DNA of 33,716 nt from Zetaproteobacteria bacterium. GTDB lineage: Bacteria; Pseudomonadota; Zetaproteobacteria; Mariprofundales; Mariprofundaceae. Where the stretch lies: assembly GCA_021545645.1 (NCBI GenBank), contig JAJRWP010000029.1:1-33716 (forward strand). The letters run 5' to 3'. The translations under genes and the position numbers were made by a program. Shown here piece after piece: positions 7,150 to 33,039 of this stretch. Position 1 is the first letter of the stretch, and each line of letters starts with the position of its first letter. The notes beneath the pieces were generated by a model. It was given only the letters and a program-made list of their open reading frames with translations. It did not search any database and was not told where the DNA came from.

Positions 7150-8427
7150 CTATATCTGCGATAGCCAGATGGCAGCAGCCAAGCTGATAAAAATCATGGG
7201 CAGCAGGCCGATCAGCAGCCAGCGGTGTGCAGCGGCGGGGGCGATGATTAGTCCGATAGCCAGTTTAACTGCCGAATTGGCGGCGCAGGCAAGCAAAATG
7301 GCTTGTGCGGCCAATTGCGCAACAATTGCCGCCGAATCCATCTGACTGACCGACAGGGTGATGGCATCGACATCGCTAAGCCCGGAAAGAAAAGCAATAC
7401 CGAGAATGCCCGCATCGCCGAAATAATCTTGCGCTGCGCGGGTAAGCAGTACAATGAACGCGAAAAATGCACCGAAACCGAGAGCCACCGGCAGTGATAA
7501 CGGGTTGAATTCCGGTCGATAATGTTTGCTGACATGCGGGCTTCCGGTTTTTTTCCACAACAGCACGCAGACAACCAGTGTTACCGCGATCACCGCAATT
7601 GCCGGAAACAGCAGAAACAGACTTAACTGCGCATTAAAAATCAGCGTCAGCGCCCAAACACGCGGAAACATCGTCGCGCAGGCCAGTAAAATAGCCAGTA
7701 CGCACTGCATTTGCAGTGCCGGATTGCTGCGGCACAGGCGCGACATGGTCAGGGTGACTGCTGTGCTCGATACCAGTCCGCCGAGCAGACCGGTCAGGCT
7801 GAGCCCGGCTTTTTGCCCCAGTGTTTTGATCAAGGTGTAGGCGGCAAAGCCGATGCCCGAGATTAGCACCACCATTAACCATGTCCGTTGCGGATTAAAC
7901 GCGCCGTAGGGGCCATAGGCTTGGTCGGGAAGGATGGGCAGAATAACCACCGTGACAATCAGAAATTGTAGCGCTTGATGCATATCCATCGGTGATAGCG
8001 CGCCGGAGAAACGGTGCAACAGTTTTTTGTAGGAAAGCAGCGTGAAGACGACGACGGCAAGGATGCTGGCCTGTAAAACATGACCAAGCCCGGTCAATAC
8101 ACCGAGAACGAAGGTCAGGACAAGGGCGATTTCGGTAGTCATACCGACGTCCGCGCGTTTTCTATTGCTGCTGCGCTGGTAGGCGAGCATGGCCAGACCG
8201 GCGGTGGCGGCAAGACCGAGCATAATGCCCCAGCTCATCATTTGCGCGGGTAACCAAGTGAGTAAATTGCCCAACAGGGAAACAAAGGCAAAGGTGCGGA
8301 TGCCGGCGGGTTCGCTGTGGTGTGCGGTGTCTTTGCGGCGTTGATCGTATTCGCGTTCTAGGCCGATAAGTAGGCCGATACCCAGAGCGGCGATTGCAGG
8401 CATCAACAATTCCAGATCGATTAGCAT
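7150..8427 (-). CDS. MgtC/SapB-DUF4010 family membrane protein
   Basis: ALGIGLLIGLEREYDQRR N-terminal MgtC-like motif; C-terminal polytopic region with FLSGLSDVDAITLS. Confidence 0.85.
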   Translation of the reverse strand: MLIDLELLMPAIAALGIGLLIGLEREYDQRRKDTAHHSEPAGIRTFAFVSLLGNLLTWLPAQMMSWGIMLGLAATAGLAMLAYQRSSNRKRADVGMTTEIALVLTFVLGVLTGLGHVLQASILAVVVFTLLSYKKLLHRFSGALSPMDMHQALQFLIVTVVILPILPDQAYGPYGAFNPQRTWLMVVLISGIGFAAYTLIKTLGQKAGLSLTGLLGGLVSSTAVTLTMSRLCRSNPALQMQCVLAILLACATMFPRVWALTLIFNAQLSLFLLFPAIAVIAVTLVVCVLLWKKTGSPHVSKHYRPEFNPLSLPVALGFGAFFAFIVLLTRAAQDYFGDAGILGIAFLSGLSDVDAITLSVSQMDSAAIVAQLAAQAILLACAANSAVKLAIGLIIAPAAAHRWLLIGLLPMIFISLAAAIWLSQI

Positions 8428-8534: not shown

Positions 8535-8608
8535 TGGGGGATCGTCTAGTGGTAGGACTACGGACTCTGACTCCGTCAACCGAGGTTCGAATCCTCGTCC
8601 CCCAGCCA
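8535..8608 (+). tRNA. tRNA-Gln (anticodon CUG), CCA encoded
   Basis: Acceptor TGGGGGA/TCCCCCA, loop CTCTGAC, T-arm CGAGGTTCGAATCCTCG, GCCA end. Confidence 0.95.
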
Positions 8609-8692
8609 GTTTTTTTGAATATTTACAGCCGGAACTTTCAGATGAACGCTTTTTAATTTTCACTTCATCCTCTTTCAACAAAGGGTGTGTAA

Positions 8693-8783
8693 AGTTCGCA
8701 TCAGTCCGGCGCGATTCCCTCCTCCCCTCCCTATAAATTTCGCCGGACTATCCTGACCCCGGCTTCTGCCGGGGTCTTTTTTT
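8693..8783 (+). ncRNA. Candidate sRNA: hairpin with C-rich anti-Shine-Dalgarno loop followed by rho-independent terminator
   Basis: Perfect 9-bp stem AGTCCGGCG (8703-8711)/CGCCGGACT (8741-8749) enclosing CGATTCCCTCCTCCCCTCCCTATAAATTT; immediately followed by terminator 8755-8783; no credible ORF. Confidence 0.5.
8755..8783 (+). terminator. Rho-independent terminator
   Basis: GACCCCGG-CTTCTG-CCGGGGTC stem followed by TTTTTTT. Confidence 0.93.
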
Positions 8784-32942: not shown

Positions 32943-33039
32943 ATTTACCCATTCCCGGTATACCGATTTGATCAGGGTTTGGCTTACGCAGCCTTTCGGT
33001 GCTAAAGTCGCCTGCATTGCAGTTCCTAGGAGGGATGCC

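Follow-up and report, generated by a model that had tools for sequence, protein, structure and literature searches.

Zetaproteobacteria carry a conserved family of compact elements, each consisting of a promoter array, a hairpin with a C-rich loop and an intrinsic terminator, and one member lies downstream of tRNA-Gln in the 33,716-nt stretch of DNA analysed here (the window). The conservation of this family, its structure, promoter array, copy number and distribution are shown by the comparisons below. We consider it likely, in the absence of transcript data, that its members form a regulator-activated, redundant family of trans-acting small RNAs (sRNAs) directed against Shine-Dalgarno (SD) sequences. 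Expression, the type of regulator, pairing, targets and the direction of the effect are all inferred. The family is near-universal in the class, and the promoter signature, in its exact form, occurs only with the sRNA.

The element downstream of tRNA-Gln

The window belongs to a zetaproteobacterial assembly of 1.99 Mb in 185 contigs. Two covariance models were used: R1, which describes the hairpin and terminator without the promoter, and R2, which describes promoter, hairpin and terminator together. The features of the window element are listed below. The ends of the RNA are inferred, the start from its spacing to the -10 box and the end from the terminator.

8535-8608, plus strand: tRNA-Gln(CTG), syntenic neighbour of the window copy, outside the RNA itself
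8642-8678, plus strand: predicted OmpR/PhoB-type activator site, with four direct repeats of 11 bp (ATGAA, TTAAT, TTCAT and TCAA, the last degenerate)
8690-8695, plus strand: -10 box TAAAGT (consensus TANNNT), without a -35 box
8703-8783, plus strand: sRNA of about 81 nt, predicted from the fold and from covariance models R1 and R2
8703-8711, plus strand: 5' arm of the covarying stem, AGTCCGGCG (68-member alignment)
8712-8740, plus strand: loop with the near-invariant tract ATTCCCTCCTCCCCTCCCTA, predicted anti-SD seed
8741-8749, plus strand: 3' arm of the covarying stem, CGCCGGACT (68-member alignment)
8755-8783, plus strand: intrinsic terminator hairpin and T-run (stem 8755-8776, T-run 8777-8783)

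The two stem arms pair perfectly around a 29-nt loop, and the terminator starts 5 nt past the stem. The predicted RNA folds at -38.2 kcal/mol (z = -5.7 relative to dinucleotide shuffles), with none of 200 shuffles equally stable. The C-rich tract TCCCTCCTCCCCTCCC has a single occurrence in its own genome. The window copy is situated 95 nt 3' of tRNA-Gln, a placement shared by many relatives. An Rfam scan of the window returned two tRNAs and nothing else.

An earlier note on the window had described this hairpin, its loop and its terminator, and had read them as a candidate C-rich anti-SD sRNA. The description held exactly, in both coordinates and fold. The reading is supported, with SD pairing as the best mechanism, itself inferred from complementarity only. 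The note had missed the promoter ahead of the hairpin, with its array (8642-8695), and a further copy of the element that this genome carries on contig C179 (33108-33248).

Conservation and covariation

A DNA search with tRNA-Gln and its downstream sequence recovered the element in all three congeners and in several other genera. The C-rich loop hardly varies across 13 genomes, in which the stem and terminator differ by compensating changes. In a 68-member alignment, built without structural information, 96.4% of the stem cells are paired, compared with 28-50% when the stem is slid. Two-sided stem changes occupy 85 cells versus 26 in shuffles, and eight of the nine stem pairs show changes on both sides. 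The earlier note had held that a lack of conservation of stem and loop in relatives would refute its reading; both are conserved, and the stem covaries.

The C-rich tract has a median length of 19 nt, usually with three CCTCC units, and predicted folds leave on average 97% of it unpaired. All members have one C-rich hairpin and a terminator per RNA, and the order promoter-hairpin-terminator is fixed in about 96 distinct members. An unpaired CCUCC-type seed, a conserved structure, an own promoter and a terminator together meet the sequence criteria of an anti-SD sRNA. In G037, from another family of the same order, the tRNA-Gln-linked copy (L080:1499-1578, minus strand) has a completely different stem and has kept the loop; its upstream array is degenerate.

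The promoter and its predicted regulator

The regions upstream of the R1 hairpin matches, found without any promoter in the model, were compared in a non-redundant set of 71. They share the consensus ATGAA-N6-TTMAY-N6-TTMAY-N7-TMA; a TANNNT -10 box comes next, a short way ahead of the hairpin. At the four array positions, spaced 11 bp apart, T is present in 92-100% and A in 100% of the 71 sequences, which meet the criterion for OmpR/PhoB-type repeats (11-bp direct repeats overlapping the -35 region). The T and A of the aligned -10 box are near-invariant (68 members). The window array departs from the consensus by one mismatch, and a sigma-70 scan at the window promoter found no full promoter.

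Response regulators of the OmpR/PhoB family bind to direct repeats of 11 bp. Sites for ArcA comprise three to five direct repeats with 11-bp centre-to-centre spacing (PMC3798270). The sRNA promoter shares this spacing, a likeness confined to the promoter, whereas its array always has four repeats and keeps a constant distance to the -10 box. Given the 11-bp direct-repeat array, the regulator is therefore predicted to be of the OmpR/PhoB family. Binding of the array by such a regulator is likely, and the missing -35 box is as expected of an activated promoter. Both statements are inferred from sequence alone, with no binding data, and the regulator is unidentified.

In 18 genomes, every zero-mismatch array (28/28) is followed by a C-rich hairpin, and the reversed array pattern gave few matches in the same search. 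When one mismatch was allowed, 16 of 52 distinct sites in the loci at hand lacked a hairpin. These were not accepted as real sites, as they look like chance occurrences, for example the array at L212 upstream of a ribonucleotide-reductase-like gene. Two one-mismatch arrays, L209 and L212, precede protein genes judged by eye to be PD40-like periplasmic and ribonucleotide-reductase-like, respectively; chance is the probable explanation, and direct regulation of these genes remains possible.

Distribution and copy number

R1 matched 71 of the 78 class genomes at E <= 0.1. Its matches above 70 bits (n = 33) are orthologue-like, and those at 25-50 bits include many paralogues, some of them in tandem, that have other stems around a loop of the same type. 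Several matches at 20-23 bits in the window's own genome proved to be ordinary terminators. R2 identified the family in 73 of 78 Zetaproteobacteria and in 39 of 39 good-quality genomes, with one to six copies each.

With R2, no member was found in 321 sampled genomes of other Pseudomonadota. Outside the class R1 gave matches of 30-39 bits, which are uninspected, and R2, with the promoter included, finds none there. The absence outside the class is limited to the sampled genomes and to a model that includes the promoter. G004 (genus g2) is the only 99%-complete class genome without a clear member. It has three weak, uninspected R2 matches (best E 1e-7), and its petA gene has an ordinary AAAAAGGAGG SD sequence.

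Candidate targets

The earlier note had also pointed to an 8-nt match between the loop and one SD sequence in the window:

33028-33035, plus strand: AGGAGGGA, SD sequence 4 nt upstream of the start codon (ATG) of a cytochrome c gene; possible but weak target

The match is real, yet weak taken alone. The low specificity conceded for it was borne out, as loop matches of at least 8 nt occur in 7 of 369 start regions (congener and window). Only 1 coding-sequence window of 369 has such a match, a contrast that speaks for pairing with start regions. High scorers among the 369 start regions include petA (Rieske protein) and petB (cytochrome b) of the bc1 complex. Genes were ranked for loop complementarity in two complete genomes from genus g9: petA comes first of 342 and first of 349, and petB falls in the top 6 and top 7; the chance of two named genes ranking so high is about 3e-4 per genome. 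In most other genera petA has loop matches of 8-11 nt that differ in sequence (GAGGGGAGGAG, AUAGGGAGGGG, AGGGAGGG). In the same test across genera, the carriers G006, G010, G026, G038 and G040 yielded no petA match. G003 and G081 have the sRNAs and a divergent petA without complementarity, and petA of G004 has no loop match. As several carriers lack the petA match, other targets must exist.

The two ranked genomes belong to one genus and are not independent. SD strength was one criterion in choosing start codons, and such calling favours SDs. In addition, the reversed loop matches as many start regions as the true loop, because the tract is nearly mirror-symmetric; with a C-rich, near-symmetric loop, general SD G-richness cannot be separated from specific pairing. 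For these three reasons, the target claim is suggestive and not shown. On this suggestive evidence, and without expression data, petA and petB are the best candidate targets, better supported than the cytochrome c gene at 33028. Long near-perfect complements of the whole loop in the genomes show no excess over the reversed pattern. Recurrent GGCAGGCGAGGAGGGA matches were rejected as targets, being the complement of a tRNA gene that, judging from the anticodon, probably encodes tRNA-Trp.

Proposed mechanism and alternative explanations

In the mechanism that we favour, an unidentified OmpR/PhoB-family response regulator would bind the four 11-bp repeats and activate a promoter with only a -10 box. 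The resulting trans-acting RNA of about 81 nt would begin at the base of the hairpin and stop at the intrinsic terminator. Its unpaired CCUCC-repeat loop would pair with G-rich extended SD sequences and thereby block ribosome binding. The several sRNA copies may be redundant on shared targets, with the bc1 genes petA and petB predicted to be among them. A bolder reading holds that the detectable regulon of the regulator consists only of the one to six redundant anti-SD sRNAs, which would brake bc1 and other genes with G-rich SDs. This reading is possible but less likely than not. If true, it would represent a class-wide, RNA-only two-component output controlling respiration in iron oxidisers.

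The rival that survives best, although unlikely, is that an RNA-binding protein binds the C-rich loop, which would then be no antisense seed. The RNA would serve as a sponge or RNP scaffold, in the way that CsrB-type RNAs serve CsrA, and the regulator would tune the free amount of the bound protein. In favour of this explanation, conservation of the tract extends over about 19 nt, longer than a short seed requires, and near-perfect long complements are not enriched in the genomes. Against it, CCUCC is the anti-SD core itself, through which similar loops are known to act (PMC10746234, PMC5869019), the petA and petB start regions are complementarity outliers, and there is no protein candidate.

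A set of phosphate-starvation sRNAs controlled by PhoB is very unlikely. The 11-bp repeats, whose TCAY-like cores occupy the -35 position, do resemble a Pho box. However, the repeats at the pstS promoters of G006 (L132, L137) read TGTCAY and those of the sRNA arrays TTMAY, with T and not G before the core. The Pho-regulon criterion, TGTCAY repeats as at same-class pstS promoters, is not met by the sRNA arrays. Classical TGTCAY 11-bp Pho boxes thus occur in the class, at L132 and L137 upstream of pstS, and PhoB sites are therefore distinguishable from the sRNA arrays.

A functionless 3' trailer of tRNA-Gln with its terminator, an alternative that the earlier note had left standing, is all but excluded. 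The window copy does lie close behind tRNA-Gln, as in many relatives, but most copies have no tRNA next to them, many follow an RND efflux gene, and the loop is more conserved than the stem. The element has its own conserved promoter, common to all copies, and most members lie away from tRNA-Gln; it is therefore no tRNA trailer. That the C-rich tract acts as DNA, as a minus-strand G-quadruplex or protein site with an incidental hairpin, can be set aside with similar confidence: the minus strand GGGAGGGGAGGAGGGA is G-rich, but the stem covaries, the terminator is on the same strand, and the order of promoter, hairpin and terminator never changes across the members.

Relationship to known sRNAs

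No Rfam 15 family reached its gathering threshold on the window element or on 20 further member loci. SorY, ncr1175, GadY and ar14 gave weak scores far under the cut-off and were rejected. The earlier note had likened the element to the alpha-r14 and cuckoo RNAs. Membership fails by sequence model, with the alpha-r14 model (RF02344) scoring 17.2 bits on the window element against a gathering threshold of 58.8. It also fails by architecture, as several CCUCCUCCC-loop hairpins per RNA would be expected and each member has one C-rich hairpin.

NfeR1 (alpha-r14) of Sinorhizobium and the CcsR1-4/cuckoo RNAs are CCUCCUCCC RNAs of Alphaproteobacteria (PMC10746234 on NfeR1, PMC3927594 on Rhizobiales models, PMC10253847 on CcsR). 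The zetaproteobacterial sRNA resembles them in its variable stems, conserved CCUCC-type anti-SD loop and intrinsic terminator, and shares with CcsR the presence of several copies per genome. The alpha-r14/cuckoo RNAs block target start regions, the same action that we propose here. In contrast, RNAs of the NfeR1 type carry three or four CCUCCUCCC hairpins, whereas the zetaproteobacterial sRNA has one longer C-rich hairpin. CcsR RNAs are processed from the ccaF1 (DUF1127) transcript under RpoH, while each zetaproteobacterial sRNA has its own promoter with a four-repeat array (DUF1127 was not searched for at every locus).

GsrN of Caulobacter likewise exposes a single 5' C-rich loop, its most conserved part, which pairs with a G-tract in an mRNA leader; unlike the RNA proposed here, it is under the general stress sigma factor and activates katG (PMC5869019). 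By BLAST, GsrN is restricted to Caulobacteraceae (PMC5869019). The Qrr sRNAs of Vibrio also exist as several redundant copies under one response regulator, a trait shared with the zetaproteobacterial family. They differ in using sigma-54 and LuxO and a different pairing region, and in having no C-rich hairpin loop.

As the alpha-r14 model and architecture both fail and the control region is different, the family is placed as a new one within the C-rich anti-SD sRNAs. That it was previously uncatalogued, and is not an alpha-r14 or cuckoo member, rests on Rfam 15 and the open-access literature searched. These sources contain no regulatory sRNA family specific to Zetaproteobacteria, but this family may still have been described in a subscription journal. 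One possible place is a 2017 survey of structured RNA candidates, which reportedly names a Zetaproteobacteria motif; the motif name is absent from the open-access literature searched. The family appears to be an independent case of C-rich anti-SD loops. It brings defined respiratory-chain target candidates, and the regulator and its signal in iron oxidisers become directly testable.

Genomic neighbours

One sRNA lineage lies downstream of tRNA-Gln. In the window, a gene for an MgtC and DUF4010 membrane protein (7150-8427, minus strand) is situated upstream of this tRNA, on the opposite strand. In eight genera, copies of another lineage immediately follow an RND efflux gene (ACR_tran). The second copy of the window's own genome is one of them, and there an OEP gene precedes ACR_tran. 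No two-component system was seen beside an RND-linked copy among the ORFs of the one locus read. At L240:6438-11049 (contig C179) and at loci L241-L247, the genes for an outer-membrane efflux protein and an RND permease form a two-gene operon, and it is possible that this operon is a functional partner or target of the sRNA.
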